Shown one piece after another: positions 1 through 12,236 of a stretch of 64,000 bases of DNA. Within the stretch, counting starts at the first letter, position 1; every line of letters begins with the position of its first letter. The stretch is from Phycisphaerales bacterium (GTDB lineage Bacteria > Planctomycetota > Phycisphaerae > Phycisphaerales > SM1A02), in the NCBI GenBank assembly GCA_029268515.1, contig JAQWNP010000006.1:310001-374000 (forward strand). Reading direction: 5' to 3'. Both the position numbers and the translations under genes were made by a program. The notes beneath the pieces are model-generated. The model saw only the letters and a program-made list of their open reading frames with translations, was not told the DNA's origin and searched no databases.

Positions 1-3000
1 TGGCAATCCGACTAAGTCGCTCAACAGCTCTTGGCGAGCCAACTACCACAAGACTATTTGATTCCTTGTCAACAGCAATTGAAAGCGGCGCACTGAAGTC
101 AGATTCATTTGTCTCGTCAGCATTGGTTCCAGACGCGCTGTCATCGCCAACCTGGGCAAGGGCCAGTAATACGATCGCTGTCATACCTGGAACGATTGGT
201 CTTTGTCGTTGCGAACTTGGCGCATCTGTTTTCGGGCGATCGCGATTTGATTGTTCTAATAGTTGCTCAAGTGTCATGACCTCAACCTGGTTATCCCGAT
301 TTTGATTCATCATGCGCTTGAGCAAATCTGCAACAGCCGTTGCCTCAGCTCGATTAGGATCAATGCTAATGGTACGCACCTGCCGAGCCGTCTCGAGCGC
401 AGCTTGATCAATTTCATTCACAACTTGTGAAATTATTTCGTACTGCACGTCGGTTGCGCGAATCAAGAGGCAGTTGTTCGGCGTATCAACACGAATTGTT
501 GGCGGCTCCACATCAAAATCATCCTCATCGAAGAGAAGACGAATATTCTCTGCGAGGCTACTGGCATCGGCATTATCGACAACCAGTACATGAACTGGTC
601 TTTTGGTGTTTTTGCCATTTGCCGTAGGCGCCACATCAAGCTGAGCAACAAGCTCTTCAGCCAATGGCAAGGCTACTGAAGCGCCTGAAAGGACAATTGC
701 GTTAAGTCGTTTATCAGCGACAACGCGAATCCCCGGATTATCCTCGGGCAATGTCCATCTTCTTCGAAGCGCTTCCATGCGAACATTTAAAGGAATGATC
801 TCGCCTGCTAACAACTGCTCGACTAACGGCGCAATTCGTTCTGCCTGCGCGTGCTTTAGGAAGACCGTCTTCACAAGTGGTTCATCTGGATCCTCTGCGC
901 TGTCAAGTGGGCTGATAAGCGATTCAAGAAATACCATCTGTTCGGCTGTAGCCGCAACAACAAGTACATTACTTGCCGGCTCTGGGGTAATAACTGGTGG
1001 CGGCTCTGACACATAATTTGGCTGTGAGGCCCTGACAGCGACGGCACGGGCTATTGCTCGAGCCACATCTTCAGCGCGTGCTTTGTCTAGCTTGAATAAC
1101 CTGACTTCAATGGAAGCTTGAGCAGATTCTTCTTGATCAAGCTGTTGAATGAGGGCTTCTACAATTGGCATGACTGACACGGGCGCTGAGACAATCACCG
1201 TGCTACTGTCGGGCTCCGACGTTACCGTAAACATACTCCCAAGATCAACAGACGAGCCAGAAACATTCTGCTTTATACGATCTGGAACAACCGCTTTCAG
1301 AGTCTCCGCAATGACTGCAGGCCTTGCATGCTTGATCGAGAATAAGCGCATTGAAGTTTCGGTTGTTGATGGAGGCAGATCAAGCTCTCCTAATACCCGC
1401 TCGACCGTTTTGAAAATCTCTGCTGGTCCTGAAATGACCAGTGTGCGGGTCGCCGGATCTGCTGTAATAGATACAGGGACCCTGCGATCCTGGCCAGTTG
1501 GACTCAGCGCTCCGGCATCCGCCAGTTTTGAAAGTGACTGCGCCATCGCATCAATATCTGCATGCTCGACCGGATAGGTACGCACCTCTATTGTTTTTTG
1601 TAGATCCAGCTTCTCAACAAGCGACTCGAATGACGCTCTTCGGTCACTTGGCGCTTCAATAATAAGTGTGTTCGTGGCAGCATCTGCACTGATATGAACT
1701 TCCTTCATTGGCCTTAGATGCGGCATCGGCTTTCCACGGCGATCCAATGGTATCGGTGGGTTGGGATAAAGCTTATTAAGTGCAATGGCAACATCTGTTG
1801 CACGTGCCTGCTGCAGTGGCAATATGATTGTGGTGCGCTCGGACTCATCTTCACCAGTAGCATTGACTTCGTCTACAAAAGACTTAATTTCACTAAATAC
1901 GGCTGGATGAGCAGATACGATGAGTGTATTGGTAGCCGTATCTGACGAAATCTCTACTGGCTGCTCACGGCGCATTTCGGCAGGCCGCGTGTCATAACGA
2001 CCTTGCAACATCCCCGCTATTTGTACCGCATCAGCAGCGCGCACTTGCAGAAGCTTCATTGGGGGCAACGATAAATGCTCAAAGTTATCTAGCTCACTTA
2101 TCAGTGCATGAATCATTTCATGCTGCTTCGATTCTGCAACGACGTATAGACTGTTGTTTGAATTAATGACCTGAATTTCAGGTACAGCAATTTGCCGTGA
2201 GCCTTCAGCGGGCTTTGCTTGAGTGAGAATCTCAAGCAATTGCTTTTGCACATCGCTCGCCTTTGCCTGGGTCAGTGAAATCATTCGGCCATCCCGAGGC
2301 GGTGGTTGCAGCTGACGAGCCTGCTCAATCGCCTTCGCAAAGCGAGCAACAGATTCAACCCAACCTGAAACCAGCAGCTGACCAGCGGTTGTATCGATCT
2401 CAATATCCGGCAACTCAGCATCTCGACTGTTGAGCCCAGTGCTGGCAAGTGCAAACAGTGCTTCTGCACGATCAACTAAGCCAATTGGATCACTGACATC
2501 ACCCAAAGCAATCGCCAGAAACTCGACATCATCAGCCGCAACTTGATCGAGCCGCTCAATCAACCCATCAATCAACTCAAACTGACTTGGCTCTGCAGTC
2601 ACCACAAGGAGATCAAGCTGATCGACAGCCTCAATTTCAATAGGCTTACCCAATTGACCATTCTTATTTTTTAACAGCGGCGATAGAAGCGATCGCAGTG
2701 GTCCAATCACTTCGGATGGCTTGGTCTCAAGCAATGTGATTTGCCTGGTCTCAACAGGTAATCCGCCATGCTTCTGAATCATGTCCAAGGTCTCAATGAA
2801 ACCTTCAACTGAAGAACTGTCTCCTATTAATGTGAGTGTACGAGTACGCTCATCTAGGGTTACTTCAAGTTGGTTTGAGGGTTTATCAGCAATCACACTT
2901 CGGTCAAACAGTGACTGCGCAGCTTCGACAACTGTAAGCGGGTCATCTGATGCAATCCTAACCAAACGCACAACCAAAGCATTCATCGATGGTTTATCGA

Positions 3001-4369
3001 TAAGTTCAATCATTGCTGCGATTGCTTGGAGATCAGTTTCTGGTCCTGCCAGTACTAGAGATTTCCCATCTGCACCAACAACTATTTTTGCTCGGGACTT
3101 TTGTCGCGGACTAAGTAGTTGATTTAAAGACGTTGTTGCTGCTTGGGTCGAAATATGTTCGAGTGGAACAATTGTCATGGAACTTGTTGAATTGCTTTGG
3201 TCTACCTGCGAATCAATTGCCGTCAGGAGCATGATCGCTTCTGCAATCGCTGCGTCCTGACCAGCAAGGACAATCTTGCCTTGCTCATCAAGCGCTAGAA
3301 TCACGGGTCGGTCTGCGGCCGGCCACGAAGAGAACAACTCATCAAGCCGACCCTTCGCAATGGCGGGTACGATCTCACTAAGCTGTATCGTCTTGACACT
3401 TCGACGACTATCCACAACTGGCACATCAAGTAATTCAAGCGCCTCTTTGAGTTTGTCTAGACGTTGTCGCATGCCCTTAGCGATGAGAGCATTCGTGCGT
3501 TTATCAAGGGTGATTTTGAGGCCGGGTAGCGAATCTTCTTCGAGTTTAACCTGCTTGCCATCTTGATTAATCACATACTTAATGATCCTTTCGCTGAGCA
3601 GTGCCTTAAGTGGCTGCATCAGATCCGAAGCTTTGCCATGCTTGACTGGAATAATTTCAATGACCCCTTCGGGGTCTTCACGATCAAGCTCTCCAATGAT
3701 CTGTTTCAGACGCCGAACCTGAGCAGCGGTCTCAGTAATCACCAATGCGTTTTGCTGCTCTAAAGGTTGTATTGATCCATAGGCTGCCACCATTGTGCCA
3801 AGCTTTTCTGCAATTGGCTTGGCAAGCGCTATCTTAAGTGGCAACACAAGTGTCACAATTTGATCATCTGTAACATCGCTTGTGAGCTCACTGATAAAGG
3901 TAGGAATATTCTCTCTTGCCATCTCCTTAAGGGCCTGCAAATACAAAATGTCATTTTCAACACGCAACATGACACCACGAGACTGCAGCAAAATATTCAA
4001 CACCTGCAGAGCCTCTGGCAGCGAATATGAAACTGGCGACAGGTAGTCGACCGTCCCATTTGGGACTGGAGATTCTCTTACCACCGGCATTCCAGTGGCA
4101 CGAGAAAAGTAGTCGAGCACCTGATCAAAAGTAGCACCCTTGAAATTGAAGCGAATGAGGTTGTCATTCGCGTCCGGTGCCTCAATTTTTTTGTTTGGAC
4201 CATCAATGGCCCCACTCTCTTGTGCATGCGCAGCGCACACCACAAAAAGAGCCAAGAACAATACAATGCCTTGCCCAAACCACCGGATTGCGCGCGGTGA
4301 ATTATCGAGGCAAAGATACTTTTTTATGTCGTTTTTTGGGCGGTCCCGATCCATACGACCAATCTCCAT
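1..4369 (-). CDS. Giant multi-N1-domain secretin-like protein (GspD-related), 3' end beyond window
   Basis: The frame is open from an ATG at 4369 to the left edge: 1,456 residues with no stop. A GGGAG lies about 8 bases before the ATG, 15 bases after the stop of the upstream platform gene. Residues ~30-49 form a signal peptide ending AHA|QE. An N0/secretin-TonB-like segment follows (TFDQVLDYFSRATGMPVV). Then come about 16 tandem Secretin_N (N1-type) repeats of ~75-85 residues, each with a core like ATNTLIVSA, ATNTLIIEA or ESNSLVVVG followed by a helix ending in LD. Ordinary GspD has only three or four N domains. Whether a C-terminal secretin barrel exists cannot be seen. The position at the end of a gsp operon makes an outer-membrane secretin or periplasmic ring protein most likely. 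Certain: a secretin N-domain protein. Uncertain: that it forms a pore. Confidence 0.85.
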   Translation of the reverse strand, partial: MEIGRMDRDRPKNDIKKYLCLDNSPRAIRWFGQGIVLFLALFVVCAAHAQESGAIDGPNKKIEAPDANDNLIRFNFKGATFDQVLDYFSRATGMPVVRESPVPNGTVDYLSPVSYSLPEALQVLNILLQSRGVMLRVENDILYLQALKEMARENIPTFISELTSDVTDDQIVTLVLPLKIALAKPIAEKLGTMVAAYGSIQPLEQQNALVITETAAQVRRLKQIIGELDREDPEGVIEIIPVKHGKASDLMQPLKALLSERIIKYVINQDGKQVKLEEDSLPGLKITLDKRTNALIAKGMRQRLDKLKEALELLDVPVVDSRRSVKTIQLSEIVPAIAKGRLDELFSSWPAADRPVILALDEQGKIVLAGQDAAIAEAIMLLTAIDSQVDQSNSTSSMTIVPLEHISTQAATTSLNQLLSPRQKSRAKIVVGADGKSLVLAGPETDLQAIAAMIELIDKPSMNALVVRLVRIASDDPLTVVEAAQSLFDRSVIADKPSNQLEVTLDERTRTLTLIGDSSSVEGFIETLDMIQKHGGLPVETRQITLLETKPSEVIGPLRSLLSPLLKNKNGQLGKPIEIEAVDQLDLLVVTAEPSQFELIDGLIERLDQVAADDVEFLAIALGDVSDPIGLVDRAEALFALASTGLNSRDAELPDIEIDTTAGQLLVSGWVESVARFAKAIEQARQLQPPPRDGRMISLTQAKASDVQKQLLEILTQAKPAEGSRQIAVPEIQVINSNNSLYVVAESKQHEMIHALISELDNFEHLSLPPMKLLQVRAADAVQIAGMLQGRYDTRPAEMRREQPVEISSDTATNTLIVSAHPAVFSEIKSFVDEVNATGEDESERTTIILPLQQARATDVAIALNKLYPNPPIPLDRRGKPMPHLRPMKEVHISADAATNTLIIEAPSDRRASFESLVEKLDLQKTIEVRTYPVEHADIDAMAQSLSKLADAGALSPTGQDRRVPVSITADPATRTLVISGPAEIFKTVERVLGELDLPPSTTETSMRLFSIKHARPAVIAETLKAVVPDRIKQNVSGSSVDLGSMFTVTSEPDSSTVIVSAPVSVMPIVEALIQQLDQEESAQASIEVRLFKLDKARAEDVARAIARAVAVRASQPNYVSEPPPVITPEPASNVLVVAATAEQMVFLESLISPLDSAEDPDEPLVKTVFLKHAQAERIAPLVEQLLAGEIIPLNVRMEALRRRWTLPEDNPGIRVVADKRLNAIVLSGASVALPLAEELVAQLDVAPTANGKNTKRPVHVLVVDNADASSLAENIRLLFDEDDFDVEPPTIRVDTPNNCLLIRATDVQYEIISQVVNEIDQAALETARQVRTISIDPNRAEATAVADLLKRMMNQNRDNQVEVMTLEQLLEQSNRDRPKTDAPSSQRQRPIVPGMTAIVLLALAQVGDDSASGTNADETNESDFSAPLSIAVDKESNSLVVVGSPRAVERLSRIA
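40..3765 (-). repeat. About 16 tandem Secretin_N-like domain repeats (protein level)
   Basis: Repeat cores on the minus strand lie near 3745, 3500, 3295, 3060, 2830, 2610, 2390, 2150, 1930, 1690, 1470, 1240, 980, 710, 460 and 65. The period is about 220-270 bases, with a longer spacer before the last core. Examples of the core are QNALVITET, TNALIAKGM, TRTLVISGP, SSTVIVSAP, SNVLVVAAT and NNCLLIRAT. The repeats have diverged at DNA level, so they are old domain duplications and not recent tandem copies. Domain identity is inferred from motif pattern. Confidence 0.75.
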
Positions 4370-4384: not shown

Positions 4385-5347
4385 CTATTGTGCTGATCCA
4401 ATCCTCTCTGCCTCTGGTAGTACTTGACGGTCAACCATGGTTGCCCCAAGCTCTACAAACCAGAGCTCTCCCTCAAAATCAAACTCTGCAACGAGGCCAT
4501 TCACACCTACGAATTCCATTTTGTGGATCCGGTCGCCAACGGCTAGGACCCGTGACTTACCAGATGCAGAATTTCGTATATGGGCTTCGATCATTGGTGA
4601 CTCGATAACCCCGGTCAATGCCCAGTTCTGATAAGGAAACATGCGCGGTGCAGGTGCCGCGACAACGGCCACTGGTGACGGTGGTGGCAGTGGCAACCGG
4701 AATGGGTTGCCCTCAATGAGTGGCTCAACCCTTGCCAATCGATCTGCTGCCCAGTTCGTTTTCATAAGCGTCCCTGGCGGACGGCCTGGAACGAACAATG
4801 TTGTTAAGCGCACAACGACTTTGACTGTTTCCCCATCACCCTTAGGATCTAAGGACACCTGGTTAATTTGTTTTGGCCATGCTTCAGCATCAATCCGATC
4901 AATCATCTCTACAACTTCGGAAAGAGCTCCCTCCGCAGAGATTGACGCCTCTAACTCAACAAAGTCAATTTCATCACTCATTTTTCCGCTAAACAAACGT
5001 TTTGCGGGTGATTTCAGAGCAACATATCGGCCCGTATCAACACGAACTCCTGCAAGCTGAGACGACTGTCCTATCTGATTGAGTCGGGCTCGCAACTCAT
5101 GATCAACGGTCTCGATATCACCACCTAATGTCCGACTTCCGTAGTCACTCAGTGCTCGTTGTATTGCTGGATCCCGGTTCAATGCAGTGCGATATTTCTT
5201 AATGGAAGCCTGCTCGCCCTCAATCGCTGTGAGTAATTCCTGCTTTGGAGTGATAAACGAACGATCCAAGACATACCAGATAATTGCACCAGCAAAGATG
5301 ACTGCAATCACAACAACAAGAAGCTTCTTAGACCGAGCGCTGTTCAT
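4385..5347 (-). CDS. Fused GspM/PilO-type and GspC/PilP-type platform protein
   Basis: A 320-residue bitopic inner-membrane protein. One N-terminal membrane helix (residues ~8-27) is followed by a coiled-coil stretch, then a PilO/GspM-like periplasmic region around 90-190. After a Pro-rich linker (LPLPPPSPVAVVAAPAP) comes a C-terminal domain with WALTGVIESPMIEAHIRN and VLAVGDRI, the pattern of the GspC HR / PilP beta domain that binds secretin N0. Its ATG overlaps the upstream stop as ATGA, so the two are coupled. It would link the inner-membrane platform to the giant secretin-like protein encoded next. The domain calls rest on motif and position; the fusion itself is read directly. Confidence 0.65.
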   Translation of the reverse strand: MNSARSKKLLVVVIAVIFAGAIIWYVLDRSFITPKQELLTAIEGEQASIKKYRTALNRDPAIQRALSDYGSRTLGGDIETVDHELRARLNQIGQSSQLAGVRVDTGRYVALKSPAKRLFSGKMSDEIDFVELEASISAEGALSEVVEMIDRIDAEAWPKQINQVSLDPKGDGETVKVVVRLTTLFVPGRPPGTLMKTNWAADRLARVEPLIEGNPFRLPLPPPSPVAVVAAPAPRMFPYQNWALTGVIESPMIEAHIRNSASGKSRVLAVGDRIHKMEFVGVNGLVAEFDFEGELWFVELGATMVDRQVLPEAERIGSAQ

Positions 5348-6897
5348 GTCTCAGGCTCCGGCTCATCGACCTGCGTTTCTTGTGGTGATGCGGTACTCGA
5401 AGTCAGTCGATAGGTAAACGCATGACCAAGACGCGTCCCACCCTCAGCATCTGCGCCTGATGAACTTACGCTATACACTTCATTCTCGACGAGCGACTGT
5501 CGATAGGCATCGGCAGCGACGCGCTCTGGTGCCTCACCGTCGACTACGATCTTGATTGATTGCGGTGCAATCCACTCCTGCGTCGCTCGGTCATACTCGA
5601 CTCCTGAAAACTCAAGCAAGCCCATCCAACGATCAAGTACAAATGTTGTAGACGGAGGCGTAAGCTGCTGTGTGTAGAGCAGGTGGCCGAGTACATCTAT
5701 TTGTGCTGACTCCCAAAATTCGAGATGAGATAGCTGGTACTGATCCCGAAAGTGGCGAGCGTACTCTTGGTAAAGTGCGCTCCGTTGTTTAGACAGATCG
5801 TCAAAATTCGCCTGGAGTCCACCAAGGTTCATACTGAGAATTGTCCACGCAGCAAAAACAGTGGCCATGATGAGCGCTGCGGCAAGTCCAAAGCGGCGGC
5901 GTCTTAACACCACTTGATCAACTGCCTTTATGGGGTGCTCAAGATCAATTCGTCGTTGAGAAGATCGATACTGGAGCAGTAGACCAGCAGCAGGCCAAAG
6001 CTCTTCCATTTCATTTGACTGAACTTCAATTCGAAGATTGGTCTCAGGTTCTCGAACTGGTGCATCAACGGTTATGGCTATGTCAGCAATGATTCGAGAT
6101 CTAAGCTCGTCTGGTGCGAAGACAGCAACACTGGTAACTGGATGACCCTCATTAATGATTCCGAAGCTGGTCCAAGTACGTGTGGTTTCAGTTAACACAT
6201 TGTCTGCCACCTCATCAAGAACACTCGTTTCGTTCAGATGAGCTGCCCGCGAAAACTGTAGACTGCCCTGCTTTACAACACAGAACTCAATTCCACCACT
6301 GGTCACATCAATCGTAAGAGTCCCACTCGTTGGATCATGCTCACGAGGTAGGTCATGAGCAATAAGAGCCACTGATCCAAAAGCCCTGAGTGAAATACAA
6401 CGGATTTTGAAACCGGCTGCTCGGATTGTCTGACGAGCTAAGTCGAGCGTCTCTGTCGGAACGGCAACGGCAAGCACCGTACTGTTGACTCCATCAGAAT
6501 TAAGGAACTGGAAGTCGATGACCGCTTTCGAGGTATCGAATGTCAGCTCTCGCTGCATGGCCAAAAAGGTCATCTCAGGCAACTCTCTGACATCTGTTGT
6601 TGGAAGCGTGAGTCGCTTAACAACCACATCTTCACGGGGAAGTGAAACTGTTGCTGCGCCGGCCTTAAAACCCGAATCGCGCAATTCTTGCCGGATCCAA
6701 GCGCCAGTCTGCTGCGCATCTGTTCGTTTTATTTCGGGGGGAAGGTCTTGAGCCCATGTATGGGTGACTACGTAGCCACCACCAGCGCGTCGCGCCTCAA
6801 GAGCTCTGATTCTCGACCTTCCGAGATCGATGATTGTGGTATGTCGTTGAGGCAGCACGGTTGATCGATCCTTGATCGTCAACAATTGTACCGACAA
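5344..6897 (-). CDS. PilM/PilN-type assembly-platform protein (GspL-like)
   Basis: 517 residues. The N-terminal ~330 residues are a PilM/GspL actin-like cytoplasmic domain (TTIIDLGRSRIRALEARRAG, LTIDVTSGGIEFCVV). A single membrane helix at ~338-358 (RRRRFGLAAALIMATVFAAW) and a PilN/GspL-C-like periplasmic region follow. It would recruit the secretion ATPase and hold the pseudopilus platform. The start is TTG at 6897, with GAGG seven bases upstream; an in-frame TGA shortly before rules out extension. It overlaps the next gene by four bases and lies 56 bases after gspK. In type IV pili PilM and PilN are separate proteins; here they are one chain, as in GspL. Confidence 0.7.
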   Translation of the reverse strand: MSVQLLTIKDRSTVLPQRHTTIIDLGRSRIRALEARRAGGGYVVTHTWAQDLPPEIKRTDAQQTGAWIRQELRDSGFKAGAATVSLPREDVVVKRLTLPTTDVRELPEMTFLAMQRELTFDTSKAVIDFQFLNSDGVNSTVLAVAVPTETLDLARQTIRAAGFKIRCISLRAFGSVALIAHDLPREHDPTSGTLTIDVTSGGIEFCVVKQGSLQFSRAAHLNETSVLDEVADNVLTETTRTWTSFGIINEGHPVTSVAVFAPDELRSRIIADIAITVDAPVREPETNLRIEVQSNEMEELWPAAGLLLQYRSSQRRIDLEHPIKAVDQVVLRRRRFGLAAALIMATVFAAWTILSMNLGGLQANFDDLSKQRSALYQEYARHFRDQYQLSHLEFWESAQIDVLGHLLYTQQLTPPSTTFVLDRWMGLLEFSGVEYDRATQEWIAPQSIKIVVDGEAPERVAADAYRQSLVENEVYSVSSSGADAEGGTRLGHAFTYRLTSSTASPQETQVDEPEPET

Positions 6898-6953: not shown

Positions 6954-8525
6954 TTATTTCACGACCCGCCAACGGCCGATTCGCCCATTGGATGCCGCCG
7001 GAAATGCGGGCTCTGAGAGCTCATCAGGAGCATCTTTTTCCAGCTGATCATCTGCGGAGGAGGCCACTAAATTGGACGCAGGGCGCCGGCTAAGTTCCGT
7101 AAGTCCATTATTCAAAGATGCTTCCGATTCAAGAGCCGGATCTTCTTGGTGAGTCGATAGAAAGAGCTCATCATGACCGCCAGGCTCCTGGAACAGTACT
7201 TCTGGGGCCTCAGAAGACTCTTTTAACGTAAGTCGTGCTGCTGTCTGAAGGAGGCTGATATCACGTAGATAAGCCACACGCGGACTCGAATCTACGAGAT
7301 CAATGACGATTTCGAAGATCTGTGGTTCAATCAATCGGTCCTCTTCATCGTCAGCCTCAACCTCGCCAGCAGCCAGGATGAAGCGATAGGCCAGACCACA
7401 TGTCGTCGCCATCTCGTAGAAATCTGCCACCTGATCCTGTCTGATCAATCCTTGGGTATGAGGCCATAACGGTGACTGCCTGGAGGTGACATCGATATCG
7501 CCCCGTCGATCGACTAATTGCTGGATCTGATCCGAATCGAGCCCACCGAGCGCGTTAAGAACGAATGGGCTGGCATGGTTTATATCGACTCGCCCCAGAC
7601 GCGTTGGCTCAGTAGAGCATGTCAGCGCCCCCATCACTTGGATCAATGTGTCTGGGCTCAATTGAGTGGCAAGCCGCTGCGCGAGTTGGCCATCGTGTTG
7701 AAGTGGGCCCCTCTTTGATACGCCCTTGATGATCGCCACTGTTGCAGCGTCGAAGCGTAAAGATAACTGCGCCTCGATCTGCTTCGACCAACCGGCAGCA
7801 ATGGTGATTGTTGGTTTCTCCAGGCTGGGCGAAACTGGCTCACAAGCATAAACAGTAACCACATCAGCTAAGCCACGTGGTGATGAAAAGCCCAGTCGGT
7901 CGAGTACGCGTTCTCCTAATCCGGGCGCCTCACCACTGACCTGTGATGTGTAGTTTATCTCAGCAATATCACCATAGAGTTGCGAAGGTGTCATGCCATC
8001 GACCGCTAGTAATTCCGTAATCGATCCGAAGGAGCCAACCAACTCACGCCGATCCACGATTGCCTGAACCAGCTCCGGTTGCAATAAGCCTGTTCTGAGC
8101 AGTTGCTCAGCAGTCACATGATTTATGTCTAAACATGTGGCTTCGTTCCGAACGATGTCGCCATTCGGTGTGACTGGTAGCAATCTCACAACTCCCTGAC
8201 GGGCGCCATCTCTATAAATGACATATTGCTCTTCCAGATTAACTTCCTCACCAGTAAGTATTCCCTCTCGTTGGCGGGCAAGAGCATGTGAGATAACATC
8301 AATACCAGATCGGAGAAGCGCCTGAGTACGAGCCTGTTGTTCAGCAACCGATGCTGATCCCGCTTGTACCTGAGCTGTTGAAACCAACACGCTGGCCGTC
8401 CAAATAGCAAAGAGCATGACGACCAGAACCAAGACCAGCATGAGTCCTCGGCGGGATGGAGCACCGCTGTGTGGATTTGCACTAGTCAAGTTGATGATGA
8501 TCCCTCCCCGTGGCAACCATTGCAT
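6954..8525 (-). CDS. gspK: GspK-like minor pseudopilin with helix-hairpin-helix domains
   Basis: 523 residues, longer than typical GspK (~300-350). After a basic N terminus, a prepilin-like hydrophobic helix begins after SRRG (residues ~25-50, LMLVLVLVVMLFA). Two helix-hairpin-helix stretches typical of the GspK/ComEA family follow: CLDINHVTAEQLL near 131 and RVDINHASPFVLNALGGL near 313. The last ~150 residues are acidic and low-complexity. GspK caps the pseudopilus tip with GspI and GspJ, which are encoded next to it. The ATG at 8525 overlaps gspJ by 44 bases. A TTG at 8489 with GGGGAGGG upstream is a realistic alternative start. Confidence 0.8.
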   Translation of the reverse strand: MQWLPRGGIIINLTSANPHSGAPSRRGLMLVLVLVVMLFAIWTASVLVSTAQVQAGSASVAEQQARTQALLRSGIDVISHALARQREGILTGEEVNLEEQYVIYRDGARQGVVRLLPVTPNGDIVRNEATCLDINHVTAEQLLRTGLLQPELVQAIVDRRELVGSFGSITELLAVDGMTPSQLYGDIAEINYTSQVSGEAPGLGERVLDRLGFSSPRGLADVVTVYACEPVSPSLEKPTITIAAGWSKQIEAQLSLRFDAATVAIIKGVSKRGPLQHDGQLAQRLATQLSPDTLIQVMGALTCSTEPTRLGRVDINHASPFVLNALGGLDSDQIQQLVDRRGDIDVTSRQSPLWPHTQGLIRQDQVADFYEMATTCGLAYRFILAAGEVEADDEEDRLIEPQIFEIVIDLVDSSPRVAYLRDISLLQTAARLTLKESSEAPEVLFQEPGGHDELFLSTHQEDPALESEASLNNGLTELSRRPASNLVASSADDQLEKDAPDELSEPAFPAASNGRIGRWRVVK

Positions 8526-9189
8526 CTGGAATACTGATAATTCGAATCCGGTCGGGATCTGACTCTTCTATGAGTGGCTCTTCAAGAAAGTCTGCAGGAG
8601 AATCGGACACCTGGTCTTCCATTGCACGTGGCGTGACATACCAAATCGCCACTTCGACTGCTGCAGGCAACCTTTGTTGTTGAGCACTGTCATAACTTGA
8701 ACGCCATCGCCCTTTGTCAAGATAGCGAAAACGAACCCATCCAAGCTTGTTACTAATTGTATTTAGGTAGCCTGTAGAATCCGACTGAACGCCAACCTCA
8801 ACAAGGCGCCGACCTCCCTCAAGCTTGCTCTCAGTCGGATCAAAATGAAACTTCAGTTCAGTAAGATCCCCAAGCATATCTTGGCCTGGAACCAATTGCT
8901 CGACCGAAACCGAACGACTCATGACTGCAATATTCTGCTCATCCCCGATCAAGCCAGATCCAATTTGTTCAATTCCAACAATGGCGCAAGTAAGTTCAAG
9001 AGAAAGATTTTCAATAAGAGCCTGCGCTGCCCGTTCTTGATCAAGGCGTTCGTTGATTTGGGTGCGATGCAGAATTAAATCTCGGAAGAAACCAAGAATT
9101 GCCACACTAAGAACCATTCCAAGTGCAAGCGCAAGCAACACCTCTATCAGTGTAAACGCACGTTTTCTAGGAACAACTTGGTTCTTCAT
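8482..9189 (-). CDS. gspJ: GspJ-like minor pseudopilin
   Basis: 235 residues with a class III prepilin leader: basic residues then KRAFTLIEVLLALALGMVLS at ~9-28, with glutamate at the +5 position after the cleavage site (here Ala replaces the usual Gly at -1). The remainder is a beta-rich periplasmic domain with no other family motif I recognise. The assignment to GspJ comes from operon order (after gspI, before gspK) and size. The ATG overlaps the stop of the preceding gspI-like gene by four bases. It would sit in the pseudopilus tip complex. Confidence 0.7.
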   Translation of the reverse strand: MKNQVVPRKRAFTLIEVLLALALGMVLSVAILGFFRDLILHRTQINERLDQERAAQALIENLSLELTCAIVGIEQIGSGLIGDEQNIAVMSRSVSVEQLVPGQDMLGDLTELKFHFDPTESKLEGGRRLVEVGVQSDSTGYLNTISNKLGWVRFRYLDKGRWRSSYDSAQQQRLPAAVEVAIWYVTPRAMEDQVSDSPADFLEEPLIEESDPDRIRIISIPDAMVATGRDHHQLD

Positions 9190-9632
9190 GCCTCTGGCTC
9201 CCTGTCTCCAGAAACAAACTCAGTTTGATTCCTATCAGATCGTATGAGCTGCCGAACCGTGACTGGTGCAAATGACTCAGTTGATGATTGGTCTTGTTCT
9301 ACACGCACCGTAACAACGACAAGGCTAAAATTCTCGAACGAAGATGGCTCAACTGAAACATCAACGATCCAAGGCGATTCAATTTCAACACCAAGTTGTG
9401 CATCGCGAATTGAAACTATTCCACTACTGAATTCCGCCAATCTTGACTGAGCTACATCGATAGCTCGTAAGCGTTGTCCAGAATCTGCAACACGACTGAC
9501 TGCCGTTCTCATTGAACGCATAATGAGTGCCGATGCGCCTAAGAAAAGTGAAATCGCCAATATCAACTCTAGAAGTGCTGCGCCTCGCCGTGTAAACGTC
9601 TGGAACACCAAGTGCTTTTTCTTTGTGATCAT
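9186..9632 (-). CDS. gspI: GspI-like minor pseudopilin with divergent prepilin motif
   Basis: 148 residues. The leader RRGAALLELILAISLFLGAS keeps the Gly cleavage residue and a glutamate at +5 (G|AALLE), but lacks the usual Phe-Thr at +1/+2. A short beta-rich domain follows. Length and order (between gspH-like and gspJ-like genes) fit GspI, which nucleates the tip complex. It overlaps both neighbours by four bases (ATGA), so translation is coupled through gspH-I-J. Confidence 0.65.
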   Translation of the reverse strand: MITKKKHLVFQTFTRRGAALLELILAISLFLGASALIMRSMRTAVSRVADSGQRLRAIDVAQSRLAEFSSGIVSIRDAQLGVEIESPWIVDVSVEPSSFENFSLVVVTVRVEQDQSSTESFAPVTVRQLIRSDRNQTEFVSGDREPEA

Positions 9633-10408
9633 GGATACACCAGATCAACATCCAGCCGTGGGCCTTGACTTTCCTGCGCAGCGGGGAGCTCGGGCAACCG
9701 TAGTTCGTCTGCACTGGCAATTTCAAGATCTGAATCTCTCGAATCATCAAACCCACTATCATCTGACACTGCCTGATCCAGGCGAGCCCAAGTCACATGA
9801 CCCGTGAGTGGTTCAATAGAGAGTTTTGCAAGCCGACCTTGATTATCTCTGAGATAGACAGGATCGAAGTGAGCACATCCTCCAGAGGGCAAAAAGACAA
9901 GGAGAGGCCACTTTCCATCAACCAACGGGTTCGCAATCATGTCTTGACCATCTAGAATCTCTTCGAATTCTATGAACGCCGATGGCTCAGCCAGAGACTT
10001 TGCCAGACTTAATCCAGTATTGAGTTGATTGTGTGCCCAACGCTTTTGCTGCAACCCTAAGTCGTCCTGGACGGCTGAATTTTCATCGGTGAGCTCTAGG
10101 ACATTGGCCACGATGCTATTGGTGCCTGGCTCATACACGACCTCAATCATCTTGGAAGTGCGCTTTGCGTGTAGCTGCGCGAGCTTGAGTTGCTCGCGAA
10201 TAGTATCCAGCGAAGAATCAAAGCTCTGCTGATTAAGTAGTGCTGTTGATGAAACAACACCAATTGATGCCACAATGAGTAGCAATCCAAGTGCAAGAAG
10301 CACTTCAATCAGAGAGATTCCATGATAAGAAGATGGCCCTCTTTTAGGCAGCTTGTTGCCATCAACTCTCTGTGGGCGATTCGGGAATGCTGAACTCCAT
10401 AGCTTCAT
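9629..10408 (-). CDS. gspH: GspH-like pseudopilin
   Basis: About 259 residues, with a prepilin helix near residue 31 (YHGISLIEVLLALGLLLIVA), then helix LDTIREQLKLAQLHAKRTSK and a beta-rich body as in the GspH/FimT family. The ATG at 10408 has AGGGTG six bases upstream; an ATG at 10423 is also possible. Either start overlaps the end of gspG, by 47 or 62 bases. The C terminus is long and acidic (DSGFDDSRDSDLE). GspH is the pseudopilin between the tip and the GspG shaft. Confidence 0.65.
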   Translation of the reverse strand: MKLWSSAFPNRPQRVDGNKLPKRGPSSYHGISLIEVLLALGLLLIVASIGVVSSTALLNQQSFDSSLDTIREQLKLAQLHAKRTSKMIEVVYEPGTNSIVANVLELTDENSAVQDDLGLQQKRWAHNQLNTGLSLAKSLAEPSAFIEFEEILDGQDMIANPLVDGKWPLLVFLPSGGCAHFDPVYLRDNQGRLAKLSIEPLTGHVTWARLDQAVSDDSGFDDSRDSDLEIASADELRLPELPAAQESQGPRLDVDLVYP

Positions 10409-10895
10409 CAATTTCACCCTCATTATTCATTGCACGGAGGTGATTATGAATGTCATCATCTGTGTCGATTTCTTTATCCGGTCCGACCGAGACAATGTCA
10501 TAGTAAGACTCACCTCGTATTTCACCGTCTCCAGGTGCACGATAGACCCAACTACTGCCCCAATCATCTGAAGGCATACCATCGCGGAGATATGGGCCTC
10601 GCCAACGAACTGTGTCATCTTCTTCCTCTAGAACCTCACTATTCCACAGAACAGCCAGTCCCTCTTCAGAGGTTGGAAGGCGGCCCATATCATTTTCAAA
10701 CATCTCTAATGCCGCTTCGAATCGATCGATGTGAGCCAGTGTCACATCGTTACTGGCTTGCTTTCGCACGCCTGAGTAATTGAGTGCCACAATGCCACCA
10801 AGAAGCAGCAGAATTGCAATGACGATCAGCAGCTCAATGAGTGAAAAAGCTCGCCTAGCTATGATTTGAGATGATCTTACTTCCATGTAGTTCAC
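10362..10895 (-). CDS. gspG: GspG-like major pseudopilin
   Basis: 177 residues. The prepilin motif is RRAFSLIELLIVIAILLLLG (Glu at +5). The GspG body is clear: ALEMFENDMGRLPTSEEGL, a WRGPYL element, DWGSSWVYR and YDIVSVGPDKEIDTDDD, the last being the calcium-binding loop region of major pseudopilins. GspG polymerises into the piston-like pseudopilus. The start is GTG at 10895 with GGAG about eight bases before it; an ATG at 10886 lies nine bases further in. It is separated from gspF by ~119 bases, the largest gap inside the operon. Confidence 0.85.
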   Translation of the reverse strand: MNYMEVRSSQIIARRAFSLIELLIVIAILLLLGGIVALNYSGVRKQASNDVTLAHIDRFEAALEMFENDMGRLPTSEEGLAVLWNSEVLEEEDDTVRWRGPYLRDGMPSDDWGSSWVYRAPGDGEIRGESYYDIVSVGPDKEIDTDDDIHNHLRAMNNEGEIDEAMEFSIPESPTES

Positions 10896-11014: not shown

Positions 11015-12199
11015 TTAAAGAGCCGAGTTCATCCTCATCATCGGCACAACCAAGGCAATAAATATGAAAAGCACGACTCCAGCCATGCACAATAGCAATA
11101 GAGGCTCTGTGAGCCGGATCATTAAAGCCATCTGGCGGTCAATCCGACGCTCAATTGTCTCCGCCGCGGTCAAAAGGACGCAGGAGAGATTATTTGCTGA
11201 CTCACCCACTGCGATCATCTCAATGACATCCTCCTCGAAAAAACCCGAAGCAACCAATGGTGAAGTTAATGATCCACCATCTTGGACAGACTCTTGAGCT
11301 TCTTCGACGGCCTTCATGAGCACTGGATTACCCACTGCATCACGAGAGATCTTTAGAGCCGACAGCATAGGAATACTGTTATCTAATAATGTGCCAAGCA
11401 TGCGGCAGAATCTTGCAGTCCCTGAACTGCGTACTAACTGACCCCAAAGCGGCACTTTCAACTGAACAACTGATAACCACTCTCGAACTGAAGGCAATCG
11501 CAAAGACCATGCAATACCCGCACTCAGTGCGAAGAACATCAGAAGTACCACACCCCAGTAATTCACCAGGAAGTCACTTGATCCCAGCAGTATCTGTGTG
11601 GGCACCGGCAATTCAATATCGGTGTATAGATCTCTGAACTGTGGCACGAATGAAATCAGAGCCGCTACTACAACACCCACACCCACTACGAGTAGTAGCA
11701 ATGGGTAAATCAGACTGCCAACTAACCTTGCTCTTAGCTCGGCCTGCCGCTCAAGAAAAGCCGCTAAGCGAGACAATACTTGATCAAGGAATCCACCATG
11801 CTCACCGGCTCGAACCATCGCAACCTGGACATCAGGAAATACTGATGGATGGGATCCCATTGCATCAGCCAGACGCGAACCCTGGGCAACTGCATCACGC
11901 ACCTTGCCCATCACCGTTGCTAATCGTGGATGGGCACGCCGCTGCGACAGTATGGAGAGACTACGGAGTAGCGGAACACCAGCCCTAATCAGGTCTGATA
12001 GTTGACGGTACGTTGTTGCGAGTTGCTTGACACCGATACGACGCTGAAACATCGGTTCGTCACGAAGTGGGCGAACTCTCACCGGCGCCAGATGTCGAGC
12101 CTGTAGTTCCGACAGCACCGCCTCAAGAGAGTGGCCCGAGAGCCTGCCCTCAACGGCTTGACCATCCTGGTCACGAGCGATGTATCCGTACGTCGCCAT
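11015..12199 (-). CDS. gspF: GspF-type inner-membrane assembly platform protein
   Basis: 394 residues from the ATG at 12199. It begins MATYGYIARDQDGQAVEG as GspF/PilC proteins do, and carries the two T2SSF repeats (YRQLSDLIRAGVPLLRSLSI and ARFCRMLGTLLDNSIPMLSA), the repeat motif AMVRAGEHGGFLDQVL / MIAVGESANNLSCVL, and three hydrophobic segments ending in VVLFIFIALVVPMM. It is the polytopic platform protein that contacts the assembly ATPase. It is the first gene of the minus-strand gsp run; no gspE precedes it, where acs lies instead. There is no Shine-Dalgarno sequence, and a TACAAT hexamer ends six bases before the ATG. Confidence 0.9.
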   Translation of the reverse strand: MATYGYIARDQDGQAVEGRLSGHSLEAVLSELQARHLAPVRVRPLRDEPMFQRRIGVKQLATTYRQLSDLIRAGVPLLRSLSILSQRRAHPRLATVMGKVRDAVAQGSRLADAMGSHPSVFPDVQVAMVRAGEHGGFLDQVLSRLAAFLERQAELRARLVGSLIYPLLLLVVGVGVVVAALISFVPQFRDLYTDIELPVPTQILLGSSDFLVNYWGVVLLMFFALSAGIAWSLRLPSVREWLSVVQLKVPLWGQLVRSSGTARFCRMLGTLLDNSIPMLSALKISRDAVGNPVLMKAVEEAQESVQDGGSLTSPLVASGFFEEDVIEMIAVGESANNLSCVLLTAAETIERRIDRQMALMIRLTEPLLLLCMAGVVLFIFIALVVPMMRMNSAL

Positions 12200-12205
12200 G
12201 GCCAG

Positions 12206-12236
12206 ATTGTAGGGCAAAAAAATGACGAGGTGTCAG
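12206..12236 (-). promoter_or_regulatory. Candidate promoter of gspF (leaderless geometry)
   Basis: On the minus strand CTGACA (12236-12231) and TACAAT (12211-12206) match the -35 and -10 consensus at five of six bases each, separated by 19 bases. The -10 ends six bases before the gspF ATG, so a transcript would begin at or near the start codon. The spacer is longer than the usual 17 bases. Inferred from sequence only. Confidence 0.4.

Follow-up and report, generated by a model that had tools for sequence, protein, structure and literature searches.

A giant GspD-type secretin with 40 N1 units in a planctomycete type II secretion operon

How far can the periplasmic part of a secretin grow, and what might a bacterium do with it? 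The question is raised by the left end of the window, by which we mean the whole stretch of 64,000 nucleotides that was analysed (G000:C6:310001-374000, in a planctomycete genome of 3.2 Mb). Textbook secretins have three to six ring domains. Here, a minus-strand frame that starts with ATG fills positions 2..4369 and is still open at the window edge. A sequence-only reading had described it as 1,456 residues with about 16 repeats of N1 type and no barrel in view, and had left two ways of understanding it: a secretin with an unusually long periplasmic stack, or a soluble ring protein that works with a separate secretin. The frame is real. When the adjacent DNA is fetched, it runs for 7.1 kb more beyond the window, and the full open reading frame encodes 3,828 aa (C6:302883-314369), of which the window holds residues 1-1456.

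A secretin from signal peptide to barrel

The gene encodes a GspD-type secretin that consists of a signal peptide, an N0 domain, 40 N1 units and a C-terminal barrel. The signal peptide (4223..4369, minus strand; residues 1-49) was recognised by reading the sequence and from its hydrophobicity, with the hydrophobic core IVLFLALFVVCA and AHA-Q. The N0 domain (3908..4156, minus strand; residues 72-154) was identified by an N0 profile (120.6 bits), by alignment to GspD structures and by AlphaFold2 with Foldseek; the same profile matches 33 of the 33 giant secretins tested, and PF21305 was matched in one relative (L109, E 6.2e-6). Then follow the N1 units (Secretin_N, PF03958). Units 1-15 (386..3835, minus strand; residues 179-1328) are assigned by HMM, Pfam, structure and positional orthology, and unit 16 (2..379, minus strand; residues 1331-1467) is cut by the window edge and interrupted between its helix 1 and strand 2. 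When an HMM is trained on the repeats of the protein itself, residues 179 to 3516 resolve into 40 units arranged head to tail, of which two are weak; the linkers between units are mostly of 2-4 residues. Pfam gives PF03958 a score of 1,039.8 bits in 35 separate stretches of the giant. In the part inside the window, the self-built HMM counts 16 units including the one at the edge, as had been estimated from the letters, and 14 of these 16 score strongly, the weak ones being residues 325-392 and 630-686. The ranking of the repeats is also reproduced: the units near 1930, 1690 and 1470 come out on top (58-59 bits) among those lying wholly inside the window, and the weakest fall between about 2390 and 3300, where the most diverged copies had been seen. 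PF03958 covers 13 separate stretches of the window part (E 6.6e-115), not only three or four. Could such repeats arise from a chance or low-complexity match? Among 200 shuffled copies of the full protein there were zero units of 8 bits or more (maximum 4.9), and the shuffles together with the fold rule this out.

The extension to the left, which had been suggested as a check, ends in a barrel. PF00263 (Secretin) is matched at residues 3581-3746, about 6.4 kb outside the window, with E 3.3e-45 and a score of 160.6 bits in the genome and 154.2 in the protein (cut-off 27.5), and a missing barrel is thereby ruled out. Thus, the idea of a soluble ring protein with a separate secretin fails for this gene, which has its own barrel, and holds for relatives with a split array: in several lineages, the array is divided over two adjacent exported proteins, only one of which carries the barrel.

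Structures agree with this layout. At the sequence level, residues 66-318 match crystallised GspD N0-N1-N2, and residues 3378-3754 match GspD structures solved by cryo-EM (best 6hcg, E 3.5e-43). AlphaFold2, given residues 62-770 with nine related rows, returned a model (pLDDT 76.9) with N0 at the front and, after it, a row of eight beta-alpha-beta-beta-alpha units that includes both weak ones; the placement of the domains relative to each other is of low confidence (pTM 0.35). Foldseek placed the N012 domains of PulD and XcpQ on top (E 1e-11 to 1e-9). The repeats therefore have the Secretin_N fold, and the reservation that they might belong to another fold is not borne out; matches of PF14611 and PF24471, which are KH families, reflect the KH-like fold of N1 and not a different protein. 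The GspD family model TIGR02517 gives 1,021.8 bits for the whole giant (cut-off 351.35), a value inflated by the repeats, while the C-terminal 559 aa alone score 279.3 bits, which is below that cut-off and the best of the secretin families (PilQ 170).

The operon and its partner proteins

Which machine does the giant serve? Read from downstream to upstream, the genes on the same strand are those of a lipoprotein, the giant gspD, a 320-aa protein, a gspL/pilM-like gene, and gspK, J, I, H, G and F. At the upstream end, the inner-membrane platform protein GspF (11015..12217, minus strand, as are all the following) matches PF00482 (E 4e-53) and, below its cutoff, TIGR02120 (E 9e-101), and the major pseudopilin GspG (10362..10895) matches PF08334 (E 6.3e-20) and, just below cutoff, TIGR01710 (E 3.4e-25). 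The minor pseudopilins H, I, J and K are weakly matched by Pfam: GspH-like (9629..10423) by an N_methyl match just below cutoff and synteny, GspI-like (9186..9632) by position and synteny only, with no Pfam match, GspJ-like (8482..9189) by N_methyl above cutoff, a weak PF11612 and synteny, and GspK (6954..8525) by PF03934 below cutoff (E 1.6e-4), HHH_3, a weak NCBIfam GspK match and synteny. A GspL/PilM-like assembly-platform protein (5344..6897) is supported by PF11104 (E 1.9e-8) and synteny. Platform, major and minor pseudopilins and a GspC region are all linked to the giant, and because this operon from gspF to the 320-aa gene is closed by the giant gspD, the giant is assigned to a type II secretion system. 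The gene order F-G-H-I-J-K-L-(M+C)-D-lipoprotein is found again in about 20 genomes, which come from two phyla and include metagenome-assembled genomes (MAGs) of Verrucomicrobiota. In two genomes (G020 and G024, with loci L129 and L123) the giant is retained and the operon is broken up, the M-C gene lying 16 kb off or on another contig. The giant's operon contains no gene for a GspE ATPase; seven strong PF00437 matches of GspE/PilB type lie elsewhere in the same genome (G000), unlinked to the operon.

The 320-aa protein (4385..5347) has no Pfam match on the protein itself. Its two halves correspond to two neighbouring genes in lineages with ordinary secretins of 687-941 aa (L064, L066, L069, L071-L073, L077 and L079), and since the separate genes of L064 match PilO (PF04350, E 4e-5) and T2SSC (PF11356, E 3.1e-5), it is read as a fusion of a GspM/PilO-like protein with a GspC homology region. 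The HR domain of GspC binds GspD N0 in type II secretion systems (PMC3169554; PMC6882859), and the fused protein is the predicted partner of the N0 ring.

On the other side of the giant, a conserved lipoprotein (L005:6309-6884, that is C6:302308-302883, minus strand) lies directly downstream, without a Pfam match. The lipobox cysteine is nearly invariant in its family, members of which are found beside long secretins and were not detected beside ordinary ones. Its AlphaFold2 model is a beta-sandwich (pLDDT 90.4), for which Foldseek found nothing below E 0.018 among known folds; a beta-sandwich without a confident PDB match is not one of the known pilotins of type II secretion, whether GspS/AspS or the TPR type. 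We call the lipoprotein a candidate outer-membrane assembly factor and not a pilotin, although its role may be pilotin-like.

History of the array and its interrupted unit

The survey of Planctomycetota that the sequence-only reading had called for, having guessed the phylum correctly, brought out giants of comparable length across the class Phycisphaerae. Most of 60 relatives pair a secretin of 2,400-5,086 aa with others of ordinary size (600-1,100 aa). Across the class, 298 genomes were sampled, and in at least 79 of them the open frame around the matching barrel extends over 2,000 aa or more. The source genome likewise encodes three secretins of ordinary length (L006, 984 aa; L007, 778 aa; L008, 968 aa), of which L007 lies near a PilM-like gene and L008 has an N-terminal TPR-like region. 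Altogether, giants range from 2,400 to 6,169 aa with 24-62 N1 domains, and they occur in Phycisphaerae and in several Verrucomicrobiota MAGs; the longest secretin seen (L140, G099:C18:4900-24800) is an open frame of 6,169 aa with 62 units. Several small-genome members of the same family have neither the giant nor the M-C protein. Single-contig genomes (G010, G033, G046) contain giants, as do many assemblies made independently of each other, so an assembly artefact is ruled out. The versions in Verrucomicrobiota MAGs measure 3,766-4,311 aa (3,959-4,311 aa in L109, L110, L137, L138 and L139, most of these loci showing the same operon genes). A quick gene tree places them among the planctomycete giants, which suggests lateral transfer or else misassigned MAGs. 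One Verrucomicrobiota giant is split by a single in-frame stop (L051:3938-3940) without a new signal peptide, which would be a sequencing error or a sign of a decaying gene.

Planctomycetes sampled outside the class Phycisphaerae have matching secretins of at most about 1,400 aa, and proteins in this size range contain 5-9 N1 units. GspD proteins of Planctomycetia and Pirellulales (1,077-1,516 aa, 5-8 N1) share with the giant the same downstream lipoprotein; their M-C protein, wherever its gene could be located, is fused as well. They differ from the giant in their intermediate length and suggest a stepwise expansion of the array.

How old is the array? In closer relatives, 34-40 of the 40 units have reciprocal best matches that lie above any similarity within the protein, and they are collinear. 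Orthologous units in close relatives score 154-204 on average, while units within the protein score 46.8 on average and 105 at most. Differences in length are block insertions or deletions of five, four or three units (+5, +4, +3) common to several species. Compared with a congener over 2,466 codons, pN is 0.109 and pS 0.722 (pN/pS 0.15), and purifying selection is seen in every N1 unit measured. Because the units are positionally orthologous between species and under purifying selection, the array is ancient, and each ring position is individually maintained; recent tandem duplication is ruled out for the same units, which are old and orthologous by position.

One N1 domain is interrupted. 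Unit 16 carries an insert of about 55 residues between helix 1 and strand 2 (89..253, minus strand; residues 1373-1427) with a signal-peptide-like core, IVPGMTAIVLLALAQVGDD, and with few exceptions it is in this unit that giants of the order have their longest and most hydrophobic insert. The same place is the point at which genes are split in relatives. These fall in two groups, one being genus g29 of the same family (L035, L036), in which the break maps to unit 16 by sequence, and the other belonging to other families (L113, L062, L108, and probably L120 and L088), in which the cut lies at the same place inside an N1 domain, the unit-to-unit match being too weak to establish identity with unit 16. 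In split genes, the beta-alpha half of an N1 domain closes the first reading frame, and the second opens with a signal peptide, to which the beta-beta-alpha half is joined; these relatives retain both parts of the gene. From the break in unit 16 to the barrel, the number of rings is nearly constant (25.1, sd 2.2), whereas before the break it is variable (17.9, sd 6.0; range 9-28). Because ring number is constant after the break and variable before it, and because the gene is split there in relatives, the protein is modular, and a two-chain version of which both chains are exported exists in nature.

A possible tube across the envelope

What would 40 such domains build? The giant is probably the GspD of a complete type II secretion system, its expanded N1 array stacked as a tube that would link the inner-membrane platform with the outer membrane. 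By analogy with other secretins, about 12-15 copies would assemble, each N1 position would form one ring, and the short linkers would hold the rings as a tight continuous stack, while at the inner end the M-C fusion would receive N0 on its homology-region domain, and at the C-terminal end the barrel would gate the outer membrane. With a rise of about 2.5-4 nm per ring, of which 4 nm is obtained by dividing the length of PilQ and 2.5 nm is the lower value, 40 rings would make a tube of about 100-160 nm. Inside it, a long GspG pseudopilus would push folded cargo outward from the platform, through a periplasm that is enlarged or widened in places; we know of no type II secretion system with a pseudopilus longer than 100 nm. 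Two modules would be joined at one split ring, an outer one of about 25 rings and an inner one of 9-28.

Could the rings instead be divided between two proteins even here? If the internal signal peptide in unit 16 were still cleaved, the cell would make an inner ring protein, with N0 and about 15 rings, and an outer secretin, with about 24 rings and the barrel, which share a split N1. The insert's exceptional length and hydrophobicity, seen in almost every giant of the order, the split-gene lineages that break at the same place with a signal peptide on the second frame, and the nearly constant ring number after the insert as opposed to the variable one before it would all fit. However, the insert has a KD12 of 1.1-2.4 where the true signal peptide reaches 3.35, L021, most other orders and Verrucomicrobiota lack it or have a version that is not hydrophobic, and it may be a fossil of gene fusion, so that we regard present-day cleavage as rather unlikely. 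It is also to be asked whether the repeats form rings at all. Single N1 domains strung together flexibly or as a superhelix, mostly without rings, could tether the pore to the inner membrane and would tolerate a variable distance between membranes, as in these cells; N1 has a KH-like fold that need not oligomerise alone, and the AlphaFold2 model of the isolated protein is silent on rings. A tether, however, would not need position-specific repeats, and here every position is separately conserved and the linkers are mostly of 2-4 residues; moreover, the same domain family stacks as rings in solved secretins (PMC5745081; PMC6882859). A mere tether therefore seems unlikely.

It is hard to believe that the array has no function and is the product of neutral or unstable tandem expansion. 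The number of repeats does vary by species, from 24 to 62, but the changes are block indels common to several species, recent duplication is absent, orthologous units are far more alike than units within a protein, each unit measured is under purifying selection (pN/pS 0.15), and the array is kept across the class with fixed operon neighbours. As for the machine, a type IV pilus or a system for uptake of macromolecules could be imagined in place of protein secretion, since the GspL-like protein matches PilM and pili-like fibres of planctomycetes are thought to take up polymers (PMC5394234). Such an assignment is improbable in view of the GspG major pseudopilin, the GspK-like protein with HHH/T2SSK matches and the partner with a GspC HR; in addition, the C-terminal 559 residues prefer GspD (TIGR02517, 279 bits) to PilQ (170), and the genome has a separate locus of PilQ/PilM type.

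The proposed stacked secretin has one main weakness. Because the genome has three ordinary-length secretins, the envelope is not uniformly wider than 100 nm, and it follows that the giant would act where the membranes are far apart, or that its stack is not straight. The planctomycete periplasm can be greatly enlarged, as documented for planctomycetes other than the source organism (PMC5394234), and described Phycisphaeraceae are without crateriform structures (PMC8882080). TamB, which might have served as an independent ruler of envelope width, has no gene in this genome. In its fullest form, the proposal is of a rigid continuous N1 tube of more than 100 nm (perhaps more than 200 nm with 62 rings), serving as the type II secretion channel across a widened periplasm and made of two stackable modules joined at a ring shared by two chains or halves, with the number of repeats setting its reach; this we put forward tentatively, with the balance tipped slightly to doubt.

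By its barrel, N1 and N0 domains, the giant is a member of the secretin/GspD family, and an extreme variant of it in ring number, partner fusion and split ring. GspD, PulD and XcpQ have the N0, N1-type domains and barrel in the same order, lie in the same gene neighbourhood, and are its best match in sequence and fold, but they have three N1-type domains (N1-N3) where the giant has 40 and its relatives up to 62; their mean length is 555 aa (sd 151; PMC4827864) against 3,828 aa. The giant's system further differs in that the M and C partners are fused, a conserved lipoprotein is added, and one ring domain is interrupted or split. PilQ of Thermus thermophilus resembles the giant in its extra N-domains and in the wide periplasm (~70 nm) of its host, in which its six rings and barrel measure 35 nm, and its authors tie ring number to the width of the periplasm (PMC4463427; PMC5745081). 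It is, however, a type IV pilus protein of 757 aa with about seven times fewer rings, and even so has been called one of the largest characterised secretins (PMC5745081). Very long planctomycete genes were noted by size only as 'giant genes' (Reva and Tummler, 2008, as cited in PMC6461901), and the searchable text has no mention of a secretin among them; the count of giant genes in Phycisphaeraceae used a cut of >15 kb, which most giant secretins escape (PMC8882080). Among open-licence PMC papers, nothing relevant was found on giant secretins or N1 repeats. Long-secretin reading frames are presumably already annotated automatically, and what is new here is the interpretation and the extent, the fold being known.

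With 40-62 ring domains, a conserved secretin of type II secretion would rank with the longest channels across the envelope that sequences have so far revealed. How is a greatly enlarged periplasm crossed? How could a pseudopilus do its work over more than 100 nm? Can the number of domains in a protein serve as a ruler of envelope width? In the relatives with split genes, and in the ring interrupted at that very position, nature has set up an experiment on how stacks of rings can be cut and rejoined.
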